In this document: positions 2,993-36,170 of the stretch, piece by piece
How the letters are laid out: each line of letters starts with the position of its first letter
How positions within the stretch are numbered: position 1 is the stretch's first letter
Source: Armatimonadota bacterium
Lineage (GTDB): Bacteria; Armatimonadota; Armatimonadia; Armatimonadales; Capsulimonadaceae
Direction of reading: 5' to 3'
NCBI GenBank assembly: GCA_025354405.1
Contig: JANXMY010000172.1
Location: 1-36,425 of the forward strand
DNA length: 36,425 nt
The notes under the pieces: model-generated
Databases searched by the model: none
What the model saw: only the letters and a program-made list of their open reading frames with translations
What the model was told of the DNA's origin: nothing
Program-made: the position numbers and the translations under genes

Positions 2993-4315
2993 ATGGATAG
3001 CGCACCACCGACTCGGACTACGGTCGCCGAAGGCGATGTACGAACACCACTCTCCGCCGCCGGCGTTTTTTGGTACGCTCTGGCAAATCTCGGCTACGGT
3101 GCGTTTTATGCGTTCAACAACTTCGTCATCCCACTGTGGCTCAGAAGTTTCACGGGAAATGCCGTCCTGCTGGGCCTGATGGGTGGATCGCACTCGTTTG
3201 AAGGGGTGTTTATTCAGCCAATCGTCGGCTCTATCAGTGACCGTTTGTCCGGGCCGGGCGGGCGGCGGCGGCCCTTCATGCGGGCCTTCGTCGCCCTCTC
3301 TGCGCTGTTTCTGCTGCTGGCACCGGTGGCGGCACATTTACCCCCGGCACTGCGACTGACAGGTATCATCAGTTGTATATTTCTATTCACTTTGACGTTC
3401 AATGTCGCCATGGATCCGTATCAGGCGCTGCTGGCAGATATTACCACGTCAACCCAGCGGGGCAAAGTGACCGGGACCTGGTACTTTGTCGGCGCCTTCG
3501 GGCAGGTGCTGATCCTCGCGCTGATCGCCGTTTTGAAGCTGCCATTGGCCGTCGGCTTCACGCTAGTAGGCCTGCTGATGCTCGCGACGACATTACTTAC
3601 CTGCGCCCGGACACCCGAGCCGCTGGTTCGAACGCCGCCCGAGACGCGCCGCGGCCACTGGGACGACATCAAGCTGGCACTTGCCGGGCTGCGGCTGCTG
3701 AAACAGGCGCGGGCGTACTACGCGATGTTTTTTTTCTTCGGGGCAGGGGTCGGGGCCGTGACCCCGTACCTGACACTGTTTATTGAGCGCATCACCCACT
3801 GCGCCGACAATACCCTCCATCCCGATCAGCCAAATCACACGCCTGCCCTGATGCTTTCCGTGCTGCTGCTGGCGAGCACCGGCATCGGAAGCCTGCTCTT
3901 TGGGCAGCTGGTCAATGCGCTTGGCCCAAAGCGCCTGCTGCTGCTCAGCCTAGGACTCATCGCAGTCGCAGCGGGAAATGCCCTTTGGGTGACCACCCTG
4001 CCACAGGTCGCAGGCATCATGTTCCTGGCGGGCCTGGGGATCGGAGCGCAGAATGCCTCGGCATATCCCCTGCTGACCCGACTGGTACCGCCGAAGGAGA
4101 TCGGCTTTTATGTCGGTCTGCAGACAGCGGCGGCGTCCATTGCCGGGCCAGGATCTGTCTGGCTAACGGGCACTTTGATTAACCGCTCCGGCTACCGCGT
4201 TATCTTCGCCGTCTGCGCCGTCTTTCTGCTCATTGCTATCGTTGCCCTTTCCAGCCTGCACGAGGATCGAGCCGCAGCGGAAATCGCCCAACGGGAGCTG
4301 GAGATCGCCGCGTGA
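2993..4315 (+). CDS. MFS transporter, GPH/SLC45 sugar-symporter type
   Basis: A 440-residue polytopic membrane protein with about 12 hydrophobic segments. The first half has the pattern of glycoside-pentoside-hexuronide/SLC45 sucrose-type carriers: PIVGSISDRL followed by GPGGRRRPFM in the loop between helices 2 and 3, and NVAMDPYQALLADI with a downstream QRGKVTG in helix 4/loop 4-5. The central loop is hydrophilic, and a second MFS half begins near residue 220. It probably moves a sugar or glycoside across the inner membrane with a cation, though substrate is not readable. The ATG at 2993 has no clear Shine-Dalgarno. It is kept because the first membrane helix begins about 25 residues later and no better start lies before it. 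The stop overlaps the start of the plsC-like gene (GTGA), so the two are probably one transcript. Confidence 0.88.
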   Translation: MDSAPPTRTTVAEGDVRTPLSAAGVFWYALANLGYGAFYAFNNFVIPLWLRSFTGNAVLLGLMGGSHSFEGVFIQPIVGSISDRLSGPGGRRRPFMRAFVALSALFLLLAPVAAHLPPALRLTGIISCIFLFTLTFNVAMDPYQALLADITTSTQRGKVTGTWYFVGAFGQVLILALIAVLKLPLAVGFTLVGLLMLATTLLTCARTPEPLVRTPPETRRGHWDDIKLALAGLRLLKQARAYYAMFFFFGAGVGAVTPYLTLFIERITHCADNTLHPDQPNHTPALMLSVLLLASTGIGSLLFGQLVNALGPKRLLLLSLGLIAVAAGNALWVTTLPQVAGIMFLAGLGIGAQNASAYPLLTRLVPPKEIGFYVGLQTAAASIAGPGSVWLTGTLINRSGYRVIFAVCAVFLLIAIVALSSLHEDRAAAEIAQRELEIAA

Positions 4316-4950
4316 TCTATTTCCTGGCCTACCCCGCCGTCTTTGCAGTGATGCGGCTATTGATGCGAGTCCTCGGCCGACTCCGATCGTCCGGCGAGGC
4401 GAATGTCCCGCGCCGGGGGGGAGTTCTATACTGCCCTAATCATTCCAGTGACTGTGACCCGGTCGCCATTTTCGTCTCCGCCCCGCGCCGCTGCTGGATG
4501 ATCGGCAAAAGTGAACTGTTTGATATCCCCCGCCTGGGCTGGTTTTTCGCCCACTTTCAAGCATTCCCCATCAAGCGCGGCAGCCCTGACCGGGCCGCAC
4601 TTCGCCGGGCGGAGAATCTGCTGAAGTCCGGGGAAGCTCTTTTGCTCTTTCCCGAAGGCCGCCTCTCGGAAGACGGCTGCCTCCAAACACTTCAGCCCGG
4701 AGCCGCCCTGCTCTCCCTGCGCTCCGGTGCCCCGATCATTCCGATCGGTCTGCGCAATACGAATTGCATCGTTCCGTACGGCGCAGTCAGCCCCCGCCGC
4801 TCCCCCTACCCCGTCACCGTCACCTATGGCTCGCCGATTGATCCCCGCGGTTTTGCGCATCTTTCGCGCGGGGAAGGAGTAAGTGCGATGACCCAGCAGC
4901 TGAGCGAAGCGTTGGCACATTTGACCGGCCTTAACCTAAACTTAACCTAA
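4312..4950 (+). CDS. 1-acyl-sn-glycerol-3-phosphate acyltransferase (PlsC family)
   Basis: A 212-residue membrane-associated acyltransferase. Motif I is NHSSDCDPVAI near residue 42 (canonical NHxxxxD), and motif III is FPEGRLSEDG near residue 117 (canonical FPEGTRS). Between them lies FPIKRGSPDRAALRRAE, matching the motif II region. It should transfer an acyl group to lysophosphatidate, making phosphatidate for phospholipids. The start is a GTG overlapping the MFS stop by four bases, so translation is probably coupled. The last codons of this gene lie inside the first two repeats of a Pho-box-like array (from 4930), so the regulatory site for the next gene overlaps this one. The length is at the short end of the normal range. 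Confidence 0.9.
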   Translation: MIYFLAYPAVFAVMRLLMRVLGRLRSSGEANVPRRGGVLYCPNHSSDCDPVAIFVSAPRRCWMIGKSELFDIPRLGWFFAHFQAFPIKRGSPDRAALRRAENLLKSGEALLLFPEGRLSEDGCLQTLQPGAALLSLRSGAPIIPIGLRNTNCIVPYGAVSPRRSPYPVTVTYGSPIDPRGFAHLSRGEGVSAMTQQLSEALAHLTGLNLNLT

Positions 4951-4970
4951 GCTTAATCTTGCCTTAACAT
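4930..4970 (+). promoter_or_regulatory. Pho-box-like operator: four CTTAAY repeats at 11-bp period
   Basis: The octamers CTTAACCT, CTTAACCT, CTTAATCT and CTTAACAT begin at 4930, 4941, 4952 and 4963, an exact 11-bp period with 3-bp spacers. This matches the published cyanobacterial Pho box (tandem PyTTAAPyPy(T/A), 3-bp spacers) bound by the SphR/PhoB-family regulator. A TATAAT -10 box lies 22 bp after the last CTTAAC (4991-4996), placing the last repeat where a -35 would be, as in PhoB-activated promoters. The first two repeats overlap the end of the plsC-like gene. The regulator's identity is inferred from the motif. Confidence 0.82.
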
Positions 4971-4990
4971 AAACCTCCTCTGCTACCCTG

Positions 4991-5028
4991 TATAATTACA
5001 ACGAAAAGATTATTCTACACTAGAGGAG
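4991..5028 (+). promoter_or_regulatory. -10 box and ribosome binding site of the DUF1559 gene
   Basis: TATAAT at 4991-4996 is a consensus -10 element with no recognisable -35. The position of the -35 is taken by the Pho-box-like array, which suggests activator dependence. The predicted transcript start is near 5003. GAGGAG at 5023-5028 is a good Shine-Dalgarno 7 nt before the ATG at 5036. Confidence 0.75.
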
Positions 5029-5035
5029 TTTACTT

Positions 5036-6028
5036 ATGCTGCAAATAAATGCACGCCCTGCCGCGGATCGCCGCAAGGGCTTCACCCTGATCGAGCTGCT
5101 CGTCGTCATCGCCATTATCGCGATTCTCGCCGCAATCCTGTTCCCCGTCTTCCAGAAGGTTCGCGAGAATGCACGCCGCACCGCCTGTGCTTCTAACTTG
5201 AAGCAAATGGGCACGGCATCAGTTCAGTACACCCAAGACTATGATGAGTCCTACTATCCCCACCGCTACAACTGCGGCGCAGTAGGTTCCGCTTGTAATC
5301 CACTGCTTCAGCAAAACGGGGGACCGCTGCCAAATAATTACTATGGTACGGCCAGCTCAGAGCGCAAGACATTCTGGATCAGCGAATTGCAGCCCTATAT
5401 CAAAAGCTACAACGTATTCATCTGCCCGGATGCTCCGAATGGCTTCGCCGGGGCTGATTCGACGAACACTGTTTGTGCGGTCGGCGGGGCGAAAGGCTGT
5501 GACGGCGTGGGATATGGCGGCGAGAACAGCTACGGCCACAACGATGCATGGCTTAGCCCTGCAGGTGCCTATAACTCATCGACAGGAACACCTCATGTCG
5601 TGAGCCTTGCGGAAGTCAATCGGCCCGCAAGCACGATTATGATTACAGATTCGACCTACTACGGTGTCTGCCCTGATGTTACAAATCAAACAGGCACACT
5701 TGTCAATAATATTGGTAGCACGTCTGATGCAGCATGTGCAGCTGGAGCTGCCTGCAACAGCGACGAAGGTTACCTCAAGGCGCAGAGTGGTGCTAACACC
5801 TCCCAGTACGAGTCCTACTGGCAAAATATCGGGAACTCAAAGTATAGCTATGCAGCCACACTTCCTAGTGTTGCACAGGCCGAAAGCGACATCAAGTCTC
5901 GTCACACAGAATTAATCAACTGTCAGTTCGCTGATGGCCATGTGAAAGCGATGCGCTGGGAAAAAGTTGTTGGCGATATTTGCCTTTGGGCAACGGACTA
6001 CAACGGCGCACACCCGAACTGTAACTAG
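5036..6028 (+). CDS. DUF1559 type II secretion/prepilin-like protein (H-X9-DG)
   Basis: A 330-residue pseudopilin-like protein. A short basic leader ends in [11 protein letters not shown], the prepilin peptidase site after Gly15, followed by one hydrophobic helix (residues 16-38). The junction [14 protein letters not shown] is characteristic of Armatimonadota members of this family. The body contains [21 protein letters not shown] and ends with [18 protein letters not shown], which fits H-X9-DG exactly. The protein probably sits in the cytoplasmic membrane or a pilus-like surface structure. The family is greatly amplified in Armatimonadota and Planctomycetes and its function is not established. 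Several Cys and many Asn/Ser/Gly residues suit an extracytoplasmic domain. The gene has a Pho-box-like array and -10 box upstream and a strong terminator downstream, so it is a single-gene unit, possibly phosphate-controlled. Confidence 0.93.
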
Positions 6029-6053
6029 TTCCCTCTCCGCCTCAAAATCAAGA

Positions 6054-6085
6054 AGCCCGCGACCATCCCCGGTCGCGGGCTTTTT
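6054..6085 (+). terminator. Rho-independent terminator after the DUF1559 gene
   Basis: A perfect 11-bp stem AGCCCGCGACC / GGTCGCGGGCT (6054-6064 and 6071-6081) with a 6-nt loop is followed at once by a T run. It lies 26 bp after the stop codon. Confidence 0.95.
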
Positions 6086-6092
6086 CTCACTA

Positions 6093-6271
6093 GACCTCTT
6101 GCATAAGTCCCCGGATTAAAATCCGGGTCTTTGATAAAGCGATTGTCTACTGCGTAGACAGAGGAGATAATGCTCGACCCGAATCTTTGTCCGCTCTGCG
6201 GACACTCGCACTTCTACAGACCCGCACTTCTACAGACCCAAATTTCAATCCGGGGACAAATGTAAGAGGTC
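6093..6271 (+). mobile_element. MITE-like element with 37-bp imperfect terminal inverted repeats
   Basis: The left end GACCTCTTGCATAAGTCCCC is repeated in inverted form at the right end (GGGGACAAATGTAAGAGGTC), and the similarity continues inward to about 37 bp (CCGGATT.AAAT..GG). The element is flanked by TA on both sides (6091-6092 and 6272-6273), consistent with a TA target duplication. Inside are two perfect hairpins, TGTCTAC/GTAGACA (6144-6160) and TGTCCGC/GCGGACA, and an exact tandem duplication of a 16-bp unit (6207-6222, 6223-6238). No ORF of transposase size is present, so it would have to be mobilised in trans. Ends of the form GACCTCTTGCATAA recall IS5-type elements, an impression only. 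Confidence 0.82.
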
Positions 6272-8031: not shown

Positions 8032-8072
8032 CTTAACTCAAACTTAATCTTCGCTTAACGCCCGCTTAATCT
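8032..8072 (+). promoter_or_regulatory. Second Pho-box-like operator: four CTTAAY repeats at 11-bp period
   Basis: CTTAACTC, CTTAATCT, CTTAACGC and CTTAATCT begin at 8032, 8043, 8054 and 8065, again an exact 11-bp period with the CTTAAY core intact four times. The array starts four bases after the MITE at 7871-8028 and lies 115 bp upstream of the methyltransferase start at 8185. No good -10 sits at the spacing seen in the first array; CAGAAT at 8081-8086 is a weak candidate. It may act on the methyltransferase, or the MITE may have separated it from an original target. Confidence 0.75.
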
Positions 8073-8184
8073 GGCTGAACCAGAATGAGGAAGATGGAAG
8101 AGGTTGAAAGACCTCCCATTGCTCATCTCCTTCACTCTGGCTGTGGCTCCCGCCGCAGCCTCTTTTTTCGGGTACAATGGCCCC

Positions 8185-31228: not shown

Positions 31229-34200
31229 TTACAGCGCAGGGGCCACTGTCGCACCCGCAGTCGCGGGCATCTGCACTGCGGTCGCCCCGGCGGCTTGCGT
31301 GCCGCCAATCTCCATATAGCGCTCCCGCTCGATCTCGGTCAGCGTCCGCCAGATCAGGAACTGCTTGCGCAGAACGTTCAGGAAGCGGCGATTGACGCGC
31401 TTCCAGTTGGAAACGTCGCCTGAAGTCCGGGTCAGGGTCAATTGTACATCGTACACCGATTCGAGGTCCGTCGGGGCCGTGTCCAGCATCAGGGTCTGCG
31501 AGACTCCAAGGTCGAACGGAGCCAGCCAGACCCGGCCCGTCAGACGGTAGCCGGGGCCAAGCGGCATAGTCTCGACACCGGTGCGGATATCCTGGGTCAA
31601 AAAGTCGCCGACCGACTGCTCTTCGTAGGCCCGGAACCACTCGGCTAAGAACTCGTTGATCCCCTGCGCCTGGGCTCCAGCGACGGCGAAGGGCAGCTTG
31701 ATCTTCCAAACGTCGCCTTCCGGCTCAGGAACTTTCCAGGTGCGGTCGACGGCCGGGGTCGCAACTTCCGACGCTTTGCGAGCCGGGAAGATCGTCGACA
31801 GCAGCACCACCGCGATCACGAGGCCAATGGACAGCTCGGCCGAAGTCGACGAGAAGTTGAGATAGAGTCCCGGCAGAATGTGGAAGACGCTGATCAGCTT
31901 ACTCAGACACTGCCCGATCAAGTAGCCTGAGACCGCGCCGATGATGCCGTAGACCACTGCTTCAGCAATGAACAGCATGGCGATATTACTCGGCGAGAGG
32001 CCGATAGACGAGAAGATGCCAATCTCTTTCACCCGCTCAAACACCGAGCCGAGCATCGTGTTGAGAACGATCAACGCTGCAATCAAAATCGGGATGATGA
32101 TCGTGATCAACCCCTGCGAGGAAGTCGCGCCGATGGCCGAGAAGCGGTGGTTCTCCGGCGCATCCGTGACCGTGTCTTTAGGGCCATTATGGAAGCCCCC
32201 TGCGTAGAGGTTCAGGTCGAGGCGCGGCATGAGGTCCTGCAGCTCACGGTAGACCGTCTTGCCGTCGCCCATGTTGATCGCCACGGAGCGCAAATCGCCT
32301 CCCATGTTGATTAGCGTGCTGTAAGGGACATAAAGAACATTGTCCGGGTCAAGATGCAGATATTCCTGGAAGCCGGCCTGCGTCGAGGCCGCCGCGCCCG
32401 CAGACGCGCTGCTCTGCTGCTGCTGGGCCTGGTAGTCCACGGGGGTCAGGGTCTCGTTATCCAGGTCTTTGACGGCTTTGAACTTGACGGGGTCCACAAT
32501 CCCAATCACGAGGTAAGGAACGCCGCTGAAGTTGATCGTCACCTTGCCAACATCGGACGGGGCGATCTGCAGGCTGGTCGCCACGCCCTGGGGAATGATC
32601 GCTGTGTAGGTATCGCCGCGGCTGAACCAGCGCCCCGCCGTCAGCGATTTATCCACGCCCGAAACCTGGGACTCTTGCGGGGTAAAGCCGCAAACTCCTT
32701 TGACGTCCGTACCCAGATGGGCGCGGGTGAGGTGCAGGAATGACTGCTGGCCCTGCGTTGTTCCGAAGAACCAGGCACGGGGCGCAACCGAGAACTTGTC
32801 GCCGTATTCATCGTTGAGCAGGCGGTAAGCAGGCTGCTGCAGCGCGTCCCAGGTCGGCAGCCGCAGCAGAAGCCCGCTGTACGGTGAAATGCCAGGGGCA
32901 CTCACATTGTTATACCGAATGGTATTGACGATGGAGGTAAACGACAGCACCGTAAAGGTCAGCAGCACCAGGGTCAGACAGGTCAGCAGGGTGCGCTCTT
33001 TGCGGCGGCGCATGTTGGAGATGCCCAGCGCGAAGGCCGCGAATGCGATGGAGGCCTTGCCGACATCAGCTTTATGCACTCCTGATACGGACCGGTTCAT
33101 CTGCTTGAGCTGCTCTTCGAACTTTCCCCAGACCAGCAGCGAGACGATCACCGAGAGTGCCAGCATGACAAACGCGATCAAAATGATCATCGGGTTGACC
33201 GACCCGATGCTGAATGCCGGGTGGATCTGGGAGAAGACCGCGAAGATCGCCAGGAAGATTGCAAACGCCGCTCCAAGCTGCCGCTTCAGGTCCGAGTAGC
33301 CAAATAACAGCCGCTCTAAGAAATAGGCGAACGGAATCAGCAGGAAAAGATAGAAGATGACGCCTTTGACCACATCATCTGCCGTCTGCTGCGCCTGCGG
33401 GTAAACGCGGGCTTCATTGGCCCATGCCTGACGGCTGAAGGCATCGAACGCTTCGTAGTCCTGCTTCGCATAAGCCGCTAGGGCCTGCTGAATTTCTTCC
33501 CCCGCCAAATGATGCAGATGCGTTATCGGATTCGTTTCGTCCTTGGTGTCCAAAATGCGGAAGCGAGCCAGGTTCTGGATACGGAATTCATCCAGGTTCC
33601 ACATATCTTTGGCGACGCGCAGGGCCGTATTTGTGATTGCGCCGTTTCGCACTGCATCGTCGGGATTATTCGGGTCTGGCGGGCGGGTATCGCTGCCGAA
33701 CCGGGCGGATGCCAGGCCGACGGCATAGCCTATCCCCTGGGCGTTGCGCTGGTTTTCGCCGCTGGATTTCTTCGGATCTGCAGGCAGAGAGTTGATCAGC
33801 AGGAACCTGGCCCCGCCAATTCCGGAGTCCATGACCACTTTCAAGCGTGTGTTCACGCCCGGTGTCGAGAAGAGCACGGCCACATCTTCGACATACGAGA
33901 CACCCGGCTCCAGCCCAGCGAGAATAAAACCGTACTGACGCGGCTCGCCGTCGGTGGCTCCGTCGTAAATGTGCACGCCCGTCAGCGACTTCAAGGCCTG
34001 CTGATCGATCAGATCGTAAATGGAAGTGGAAACGCAGGGAAAGACGATCACCTGGGTTTCTTTAAGGTCACTAGTCAGATCAAACTCAGTGGGATAGTTC
34101 GCCGCCCCGTTGACCCCTTGATCCGGTGCATAGTCGATGTCGCCGCGCGCGGCCAGGGCATCGTCGGTCTGGTGAATGTGGAACGCAGCAACCTTGACCG

Positions 34201-36091
34201 CACCGCCCGTGCCGGCTCGCAGCCCTGAGCCATTTGAGATGACGATCGGCAGACCGACAAAGCTGAACTTGGCATTGTCCGGTGCGCCTTCGGTCGCCTG
34301 AATCAAGTTGCCGCGAACACCCATCATGGTTTTGGAGGTATTCGCGATCACAGCCAGAGAGTCGGCAATCGGCAGGTCAGGGACGAAGTTCCGTTTCGGC
34401 TGAAACTCCAGAACACGCCCTGTCAGATCGGAAAAGCCCAGGCGAAGGCCCTGACGCGTCCAGGCCGGCCAGCCGGGGACAGGCATCACGGATTGTGTGC
34501 TGTCGGGCTTCACCGCATCGGGATCGTTCGTATCGTTGAGCAGGTGCCAGTACTGGCAGGCCAGCAGCTTCGTCTGGGCCGATAAGTTCACGATGTTGAC
34601 GTGACTGAAAGTGTCGGCTGGGGTATCGGTCTGCTGCCGCGCATCGTCGGTCGTCGCGAAAGTTATTCCTTTGCCGCCCGCCATCGTTGCAGCTTCGGCG
34701 TCAAAGGCAAACCGACCCGGCAGGTAGTTCCGCCAGTTCTTGCCGTTCGCGCCATTGACTCCATCCGCAAATGCCGTTGCGGGATCGAAGCCCAGCGTCT
34801 GACCGATCTTCTCCGAGTTCTCACGCAGGGTTCGCCCAATGTCCGAGAAGTCACTTTGAATATCTTCGCGATAGTCGTAGAACACGCCTTTATAGAAGAC
34901 ACCCACGCTGCCGGTCTGCGACGACAAGTCGATTCCGGAGAAGAGCAGGACATTTGTGCGCTTCGGCAATGGGGAGTGAAAAAGCGTATGCTTCAGCGTA
35001 TCACCCATCGAAATCGGACGCCAGCTATCCAGATGGGTATCGACGAAAGTCCGTGCGCCTTGAATACCCAGAAAATGCGCGCCGCAGGCGACGAAAATCA
35101 CCGTACGCTTCGGCGGATGCGCCTTAAAGGTACGCGCCAGCTCCAGCAGTGAGGCAATGCCCCCAGCCGATTCCGCTCCGGGTGCCTGTGTCGGCACCAC
35201 GGACATCGAATCGTAATAGGACTCGATCACCACCGCCTGGTCCGCCAGGGGCCCGGTGCCCTGGATCGTGCCGACGATGTTTGCTGCCGTGCCCATCTTC
35301 CAGGGATTATCGCAGGAGAGGCTGACCGTAAAATTGGGGGTGGTGAGCGTAGCGGACTGCAGAACGGCGGCATCCGCACGGGAGATCCAGAAGCGAGGTA
35401 CGGCGACGGGGATACCGATAAACTTGGATTCCCCCTCGCCGCGCATGGTCTGGGTCGGCTCGACGAAGATAATCGCTTTGGCCCCGAGCCGGGCGGCGTT
35501 CAGCCACTCCGTGCCGCAGTTGAAGTCCAGCAGAACGATGCTGCCGCCAACGGGCTTACCCCGAAAATTTCGCAGCTCGCCGCGTCCGGCATAAATCAGT
35601 GGGCCATTTATTCCCGCCGCCGGCAGAGTAGAGGTACGCACCAGGTTCGGCCAGAGCGGCTGCAGTGCCAGCGGCTTCGGCAGACCTGCTGCCTTGACAT
35701 AAGCCCCGCCATCGATGGGAGTAGTCACCGTAAACGGCTCTTCGGTGACATTCGCCGTGCCGAAGATCTGTGTAAATTGCTGCTTGACATACGCCCGGGC
35801 AATGTCCCCGCCCTGCGTCCCGGCGACCCGAGAGTGCGCGGTGACCGGTGCGCCCAGTGGCTGGTTCAGTACCGGGTACTGGATATTCGACAGGTCGGCG
35901 ACGGTCTGGGAGAGTCGTGCCGAACTGATACTCTGTGAGAGAGCAACATAATTCCGTGCCGCTTCCGGGTCGACCTTGATTTTACTGTCGGCGGCCCGTG
36001 CGCCGCTCAGGCAAAGAAAGAGCAGAGACACAGAGAGAAAGACACGAAACGCGGAGGCAGTCTCGCGGAGAATGCGGCGGGAACTCATCAT
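31229..36091 (-). CDS. Giant fusion: PA/M28 pseudo-peptidase ectodomain + FtsX/MacB-type permease
   Basis: A 1620-residue protein. A Sec signal (FRVFLSVSLLFLCLSGARA) leads into a large ectodomain containing a PA-like segment (LIYAGRGELRNFRGKPVGG, about 150-205) and an M28 aminopeptidase-like domain (about 270-500). The M28 sites are degraded: the zinc HYD motif reads YYD, the D-N-A-S-G bridge reads AESAGG, and the catalytic EE reads AHF in VACGAHFLGIQG. Three membrane helices (about 909-987) precede an FtsX-type core: a helix at about 1030-1053, a MacB_PCD-like external domain to about 1325, and three helices at about 1326-1440 with VFERVKEIGIFSSIGLSP. A 180-residue cytosolic C-terminal domain ends the chain. 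Helix count keeps the MacB-like part outside and the tail inside. The start is ATG 36091 with AAGGA upstream. Operon leader gene. Confidence 0.88.
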   Translation of the reverse strand: MMSSRRILRETASAFRVFLSVSLLFLCLSGARAADSKIKVDPEAARNYVALSQSISSARLSQTVADLSNIQYPVLNQPLGAPVTAHSRVAGTQGGDIARAYVKQQFTQIFGTANVTEEPFTVTTPIDGGAYVKAAGLPKPLALQPLWPNLVRTSTLPAAGINGPLIYAGRGELRNFRGKPVGGSIVLLDFNCGTEWLNAARLGAKAIIFVEPTQTMRGEGESKFIGIPVAVPRFWISRADAAVLQSATLTTPNFTVSLSCDNPWKMGTAANIVGTIQGTGPLADQAVVIESYYDSMSVVPTQAPGAESAGGIASLLELARTFKAHPPKRTVIFVACGAHFLGIQGARTFVDTHLDSWRPISMGDTLKHTLFHSPLPKRTNVLLFSGIDLSSQTGSVGVFYKGVFYDYREDIQSDFSDIGRTLRENSEKIGQTLGFDPATAFADGVNGANGKNWRNYLPGRFAFDAEAATMAGGKGITFATTDDARQQTDTPADTFSHVNIVNLSAQTKLLACQYWHLLNDTNDPDAVKPDSTQSVMPVPGWPAWTRQGLRLGFSDLTGRVLEFQPKRNFVPDLPIADSLAVIANTSKTMMGVRGNLIQATEGAPDNAKFSFVGLPIVISNGSGLRAGTGGAVKVAAFHIHQTDDALAARGDIDYAPDQGVNGAANYPTEFDLTSDLKETQVIVFPCVSTSIYDLIDQQALKSLTGVHIYDGATDGEPRQYGFILAGLEPGVSYVEDVAVLFSTPGVNTRLKVVMDSGIGGARFLLINSLPADPKKSSGENQRNAQGIGYAVGLASARFGSDTRPPDPNNPDDAVRNGAITNTALRVAKDMWNLDEFRIQNLARFRILDTKDETNPITHLHHLAGEEIQQALAAYAKQDYEAFDAFSRQAWANEARVYPQAQQTADDVVKGVIFYLFLLIPFAYFLERLLFGYSDLKRQLGAAFAIFLAIFAVFSQIHPAFSIGSVNPMIILIAFVMLALSVIVSLLVWGKFEEQLKQMNRSVSGVHKADVGKASIAFAAFALGISNMRRRKERTLLTCLTLVLLTFTVLSFTSIVNTIRYNNVSAPGISPYSGLLLRLPTWDALQQPAYRLLNDEYGDKFSVAPRAWFFGTTQGQQSFLHLTRAHLGTDVKGVCGFTPQESQVSGVDKSLTAGRWFSRGDTYTAIIPQGVATSLQIAPSDVGKVTINFSGVPYLVIGIVDPVKFKAVKDLDNETLTPVDYQAQQQQSSASAGAAASTQAGFQEYLHLDPDNVLYVPYSTLINMGGDLRSVAINMGDGKTVYRELQDLMPRLDLNLYAGGFHNGPKDTVTDAPENHRFSAIGATSSQGLITIIIPILIAALIVLNTMLGSVFERVKEIGIFSSIGLSPSNIAMLFIAEAVVYGIIGAVSGYLIGQCLSKLISVFHILPGLYLNFSSTSAELSIGLVIAVVLLSTIFPARKASEVATPAVDRTWKVPEPEGDVWKIKLPFAVAGAQAQGINEFLAEWFRAYEEQSVGDFLTQDIRTGVETMPLGPGYRLTGRVWLAPFDLGVSQTLMLDTAPTDLESVYDVQLTLTRTSGDVSNWKRVNRRFLNVLRKQFLIWRTLTEIERERYMEIGGTQAAGATAVQMPATAGATVAPAL

Positions 36092-36142
36092 GCAGTGCAA
36101 TCCTTGAACAAGGGCCGCGTCGGCATCGACGGGCAGTGAAAC

Positions 36143-36170
36143 GTTAAGAGAATATTAAGAGAATTTCAAA
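36143..36170 (-). promoter_or_regulatory. Weaker third Pho-box-like array before the giant fusion gene
   Basis: On the minus strand, TTTGAA (36170-36165), CTTAAT (36159-36154) and CTTAAC (36148-36143) are spaced exactly 11 bp. The two inner hexamers match CTTAAY perfectly and the outer one is degenerate. The array ends 51 bp before the ATG at 36091. No clear -10 box follows at the spacing seen at 4991. The region from 36101 to 36226 otherwise shows an AT-rich stretch but no gene. Confidence 0.55.

Follow-up and report, generated by a model that had tools for sequence, protein, structure and literature searches.

A candidate Pho box upstream of a DUF1559 prepilin-like gene in an Armatimonadota bacterium and in related genomes of the phylum

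The closest described counterparts of the site analyzed here are the targets of the phosphate response regulators of cyanobacteria and Escherichia coli. SphR of Synechocystis recognizes three or more tandem CTTAACCT repeats, each consisting of 8 bp and a 3-bp linker, and the repeats bound by PhoB of E. coli are also 8 bp long with 3-bp linkers (PMC1906773). The E. coli PhoB box is composed of direct repeats with an 11-bp period, the last of which stops ~10 bp short of the -10 element. We analyzed a 36,425-nucleotide stretch of DNA (hereinafter, the window), which is one of the 233 contigs (C219) of a 3.6 Mb Armatimonadota genome, and in which a comparable array precedes a gene for a prepilin-like protein of the DUF1559 family. 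The arrays described here share with the SphR Pho box the hexamer, the 11-bp period, the presence of at least three repeats and the location upstream of pst and phoA genes, but come from another phylum, usually consist of four repeats, are variable in positions 7 and 8, and show two distances to the -10 element (16 and 27-28 nt); moreover, DUF1559 pilin-like genes as well as a small RNA are among the predicted targets. As in the E. coli PhoB box, the 11-bp direct repeats in the window replace the -35 element, and their helical phase with respect to the -10 element is nearly the same, whereas the repeat sequence is different and the array is separated from the -10 by an additional, empty helical turn. 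The downstream protein resembles the DUF1559 proteins (PF07596, SBP_bac_10) of Planctomycetota and Armatimonadota in its prepilin N-terminus, its PF07596 match above the cut-off and its motif of the H-x9-DG type, and its subfamily differs from other DUF1559 proteins in the GYGGxNSYGHND motif, the C-terminal CxWxTD...H..C signature and the link to a Pho box. In the open-access literature searched, which covered DUF1559 and phosphate, the Pho regulon of Armatimonadota, and Pho boxes and pilins, we found no account of this link.

Direct reading of the window places the four repeats, CTTAACCTAAA, CTTAACCTAAG, CTTAATCTTGC and CTTAACATAAA, at positions 4930, 4941, 4952 and 4963 of the forward strand (array 4930-4973), with an exact 11-bp period, in full agreement with an earlier, sequence-only reading of this DNA. 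In that reading, the repeats were taken for perfect octamers; the hexamers (in order, CTTAAC, CTTAAC, CTTAAT and CTTAAC) stand as the repeat unit, whereas positions 7 and 8 vary, the fourth repeat being CTTAACAT. The array contains tandem direct repeats with an 11-bp period and a CTTAAC-type core, at least two to three of which characterize a Pho box. The end of the fourth hexamer (4968) is separated by 22 nt from the -10 element TATAAT (4991-4996), which begins 28 nt downstream of the first nucleotide of the fourth repeat. No TTGACA-like sequence is present 17 nt upstream of this element and a promoter scan detected no sigma-70 pair there, which bears out the original description of a -10 lacking a -35. 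The one-turn gap between the array and the -10 (4974-4990) contains no fifth repeat and is typical of the 27-28-nt promoter class defined below. A directly read ribosome-binding site, GAGGAG (5023-5028), is located 7 nt before the ATG and is retained in a congener (G001), as are both the array and its -10. The upstream gene encodes a plsC-like acyltransferase (4312-4950, forward strand; profile match to PF01553), and because this open reading frame (ORF) runs to the TAA at 4948-4950, within the spacer of repeat 2, its last codons contain repeats 1 and 2, as had been noticed previously; the ORF of the congener stops at the same place.

The gene downstream of the array (5036-6028, forward strand) encodes a 330-aa protein whose assignment to prepilin-like DUF1559 proteins is confirmed by a PF07596 match of 43.0 bits, compared to the gathering score of 23.3, and by the prepilin N-terminal methylation motif (PF07963, 2.4e-10; TIGR02532, above the cut-off). 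The C-terminal H-X9-DG element is recognizable as a pattern; TIGR04294 was not reported for this protein at an E-value of 0.001. A near-palindromic hairpin followed by a T-run (6053-6082, forward strand, listed by the scan on the reverse strand) is the probable terminator of a single-gene transcript. Between this terminator and a glpD-like gene lies a repeat-rich stretch (6103-6260) with a ccggattaaaatccggg hairpin and a repeated cacttctacagaccc unit. A plasmid search with the locus produced no match.

When 291 genomes of the phylum were searched with the C-terminal part of the window protein, the pilin helix being left out, orthologues, mostly single-copy and 39-60% identical, were found in 39. 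A three-repeat array with a period of 11 (at least 14/18) is present upstream of 24 of the 28 orthologues examined, and of 21 of 25 after the removal of three genomes with already known arrays; the remaining four of the 28 regions are below the threshold, and degenerate arrays precede the orthologues in the most distant families (f14). In the same upstream regions, periods of 8-10 and 12-15 yield 0-2 arrays and the reversed sequence none with a score of at least 15; among 20 upstream regions of other DUF1559 genes of the own genome, one passes the 11-bp array threshold. Given that 24 of the 28 upstream regions contain the 11-bp array, the DUF1559 subfamily with the invariant GYGGxNSYGHND motif appears to be a conserved member of the Pho regulon, which suggests that it takes part in the response to phosphate starvation. 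This subfamily (A) retains the motifs YxHRxN, GYGGxNSYGHND, YYGxxPD, YWxNIG, DGH and CxWxTD, and the residues that are invariant in the 28 orthologues are Y60, H62, R63 and N65, the GYGGxNSYGHND motif, D286-G-H288, W304-T-D307 and H312. Altogether, at least three subfamilies, each common to several families of the phylum, can be distinguished among the Pho-linked DUF1559 proteins, and the C-terminal domains from different families are mostly mutual best matches. Subfamily A orthologues adjoin phoU in one genome (G063) and pstB together with a histidine kinase gene in another (G072); the census of orthologue neighborhoods revealed no common neighbor, with phoU, pst and metallophosphatase genes present in a few only.

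Arrays of this kind are scarce in the own genome and concentrate upstream of phosphate-related genes. In the window, the two-repeat pattern (at most two mismatches) occurs 11 times, compared to 2.9 ± 1.7 in shuffled sequences, none of which reaches 11; genome-wide, the three-repeat pattern (at most three mismatches) has 29 matches compared to 9 when the pattern is reversed, and an exact three-repeat array occurs in just six places. About nine arrays score strongly. The one on contig C122 heads an operon on one strand (locus L053, 5879-15640), in which a DUF1559 pilin-like gene comes first and is followed by genes for a metallophosphatase, a PHP protein and an SLH/phosphate-selective porin O/P, and by pstS-pstC-pstA-pstB. 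Other arrays precede a gene for a small secreted protein followed by an alkaline phosphatase gene (PF00245; C139) and a secreted phosphoesterase gene (PF04185; C58). Contig C74 contains two arrays, each with a DUF1559 gene after it, within a phosphonate cluster that encodes a GntR/UTRA regulator, a PhnM-like amidohydrolase, an MFS protein, a class III aminotransferase, a HAD hydrolase resembling phosphonatase and a PF04185 protein. Two of the nine, those at 4930 and 8032, belong to the window; of the remaining two, one precedes a gene for a secreted protein of no assigned family at the edge of C65 and the other sits at the edge of C90. Thus, the enrichment upstream of Pho genes that the sequence-only reading had proposed as a test of its claim is apparent, the same site being found before pst, phosphatase and phosphonate genes of one genome. 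No array was detected in the examined stretches around phoB/R, phoU and the second pstS (C168). DUF1559 genes follow four of the nine arrays, three as the first gene and one behind a small ORF, with a binomial P of ~4e-6 under the assumption of ~3,300 genes (an estimate) and 45 DUF1559 matches in the genome; for the other DUF1559 genes checked in this genome, the array score never exceeds 17/24. A two-to-three-repeat CTTAAY site without a clear -10 is located on the reverse strand (36143-36170) just upstream of a 1623-aa ORF (31229-36100, reverse strand) in which an M28 peptidase-like part is joined to FtsX/MacB permease domains; this site is probably due to chance.

With an array model (R1) derived exclusively from the sequences of the nine own-genome arrays, so that scores are high by construction in the own genome and not in its relatives, arrays were detected in 14 of 41 genomes. 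The targets in the relatives are, repeatedly, DUF1559 genes, as well as alkaline-phosphatase operons, genes for PF01663 and PF04185 enzymes, and a GntR regulator gene. In G004, an array directly precedes pstS; in G002, none was found upstream of pstS within the stretch examined. In several genomes (loci L033 8657-11252, L122, L135 and L129), a small secreted protein of ~170-199 aa is encoded between the Pho box and an alkaline-phosphatase-type gene; it has no Pfam match where tested and contains an F.EFFVP.P motif in three loci. Among the 43 arrays of the own genome and relatives that score at least 21/24, the distance from the first nucleotide of the fourth repeat to a good -10 is 16 nt in 24 cases and 27-28 nt in 13, other spacings occurring 0-5 times each. 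Hence 37 of the 43 combine the array with a -10, lacking a -35, at a fixed helical phase, and these two spacings are in the phase expected of PhoB-type promoters. The 4930 promoter belongs to the 28-nt class, being in phase with the array one turn further upstream.

In a qualitative scan of public genomes for the exact fourfold array, in which the matches listed included many tandem repeats and downstream genes were read by eye, the array precedes pstS, pstB, pstC or alkaline phosphatase genes, among the matches listed, in Elusimicrobiota, Ignavibacteria, WOR-3, Planctomycetota and a Firmicutes MAG. Because it occurs before pst-like genes in several phyla, the array seems to be a widespread PhoB-class site; a motif confined to cyanobacteria is ruled out, and the initial label "cyanobacterial-style" was too narrow. 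In a Planctomycetaceae MAG (L201), a prepilin-like ORF lies behind a fourfold CTTAAY array, a hint that the link between Pho and pilins may reach beyond Armatimonadota.

The own genome also encodes a plausible regulatory pair. For the regulator encoded on contig C105, the best NCBIfam model is PhoB, at 232 bits, below the equivalog cut-off of 296, and the accompanying kinase is PnpS/PhoR-like, at 358 bits, below the equivalog cut-off of 400; judged from these matches, the two proteins are good candidates for the cognate pair. Together, the arrays in front of Pho genes, the presence of a candidate PhoB/PhoR-type pair and the persistence of the DUF1559 link across the phylum support the original interpretation, and we assign a probability of roughly 0.87 to 4930-4973 being a PhoB-type Pho box that controls the DUF1559 prepilin-like gene. 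We infer binding by PhoB, induction at low phosphate and pilus assembly as follows. When phosphate is scarce, the PhoR/PnpS-like kinase would phosphorylate the PhoB-like regulator of the OmpR family (candidate pair C105), which would then occupy the four head-to-tail repeats along a single face of the helix and bring RNA polymerase to a promoter that has a TATAAT but lacks a -35. The monocistronic DUF1559 mRNA would end at the terminator near 6053-6082. The encoded protein has a class III prepilin signal, and its processing and assembly would fall to the type IV pilus/type II secretion apparatus of the cell, which would leave the ~270-residue C-terminal domain outside the inner membrane. There, the protein could act at the surface or in a pseudopilus to help scavenge phosphorus, by presenting, secreting or capturing phosphatases, phosphate or phosphoesters. 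A role of the C-terminal domain in phosphorus scavenging is a speculative suggestion that we regard as somewhat doubtful, and we give about equal, equally speculative, weight to help in secretion or in a pseudopilus and to direct binding of phosphorus.

The first of these possibilities is that the pilin-like protein is a pseudopilin or a cargo adaptor for the secretion of Pho-induced phosphatases. Phosphate-controlled type II secretion occurs in other bacteria, and the Hxc system of Pseudomonas offers an analogy, although no more than that, of phosphate-controlled proteins with pilin-like N-termini that serve phosphatase export. The window protein has a prepilin signal, the own genome encodes T2SS/T4P ATPases (eight T2SSE matches above the cut-off), and Pho-linked DUF1559 genes adjoin those of secreted phosphoesterases on C74 and C122. 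Unlike in the Hxc case, however, there is no T2SS operon, and no T2SS gene was found adjoining the Pho-linked DUF1559 genes, which are either solitary or at the head of transport operons; in size, the C-terminal domain greatly exceeds GspG, and the family is expanded (45 matches), which pseudopilins are not. We consider this option rather unlikely, and the same holds for the second one, namely, that phosphate or phosphoesters at the cell surface are ligands or substrates of the C-terminal domain itself. The latter is suggested by the invariant set of His, Asp, Asn and Tyr residues in the 28 orthologues and by the Pfam name of the family, SBP_bac_10, PF07596 being named a solute-binding family by the authors of the R. 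baltica study (PMC2754498); "solute-binding" is, however, a putative label, a PDB search with the window protein yielded no solved homologue beyond the pilin helix, and the single-sequence AlphaFold model, with a pLDDT of 37, is uninformative.

A further alternative, which we consider quite unlikely, concerns the regulator: the array might be bound by another member of the OmpR family, for example, one responding to cell-envelope or other stress, whose regulon happens to include phosphate genes. TTAA-type repeats with an 11-bp period fit the entire OmpR/PhoB class, the own genome contains six full and one weak match to OmpR-type response regulators, and a two-component pair (C65; C33 in G001) adjoins one of the arrays. 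Against this stand the array targets, which are mostly pst, alkaline phosphatase, phosphoesterase, phosphonate and phosphate-selective porin genes, the presence of the same array before pst-like genes in unrelated phyla among the matches listed, and the binding of SphR, a PhoB homologue, to CTTAACCT tandem repeats (PMC1906773). That the array is a chance or coding feature of the plsC 3' end, as the position of repeats 1 and 2 might suggest, is ruled out for practical purposes by its conservation, along with the -10, in the congener, its persistence before orthologues whose upstream gene differs, the specificity of the 11-bp period in the control and the excess of matches over chance expectation.

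In addition to the array described in the sequence-only reading, the window contains a second perfect fourfold CTTAAY array (8032-8075, forward strand), detected both by pattern scans and by the array model, with a -10 element CAGAAT (8081-8086) that begins 16 nt downstream of the first nucleotide of the fourth repeat; the counterpart of this element is TATAAT in G001 and CATAAT in G002, G004 and G006. It is followed by a candidate Pho-controlled small RNA of ~76 nt (8093-8168, forward strand), which consists of a 5' hairpin, a nearly invariant GACCTCCCATTGCTCAT stretch and an intrinsic terminator (8139-8168). The GAGGTTG..GACCTCCCATTGCTCAT..CC stretch of this two-hairpin RNA is nearly invariant in five genomes from three genera. 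A covariance model detects one copy in six of the seven genomes of the family and none in the sister family; 98% of the pair cells hold, and seven pairs show double changes, six of these in the terminator stem. The copy in G005 has a degenerate array (TTTAAA/TTTAAC/CTTAAC) with a TATACT at 16 nt and is followed by a different gene; given this different downstream gene, the RNA is probably autonomous, and the possibility that it is the leader of a SpoU/TrmH methylase gene is disfavored. A conserved small ORF is disfavored as well, because the genera differ by a 1-nt indel that changes the reading frame, although the nucleotide sequence is invariant. At gathering thresholds, Rfam gives no match in the window, and a plain complement search for targets of the small RNA turned up none that was convincing.

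The signal described here is apparently the first definition of a Pho regulon signal for Armatimonadota, a phylum with few experimental data, and comes with a candidate phosphate-controlled small RNA. One may envisage, as a possibility that we consider unlikely on current grounds, a phylum-wide regulon in which dedicated DUF1559 pilin-like proteins would be a main phosphorus-scavenging arm at the cell surface; their invariant C-terminal domain would capture or process compounds of phosphorus, and the Pho-driven small RNA would reshape translation during starvation. DUF1559 is a greatly expanded, poorly understood family of Planctomycetota and Armatimonadota, with 74 members reported in Rhodopirellula (PMC2754498), and membership of one of its subfamilies in a Pho regulon apparently has not been described before. 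From the conserved Pho box, a specific condition under which this subfamily would be expressed can be predicted, and its role becomes open to testing.
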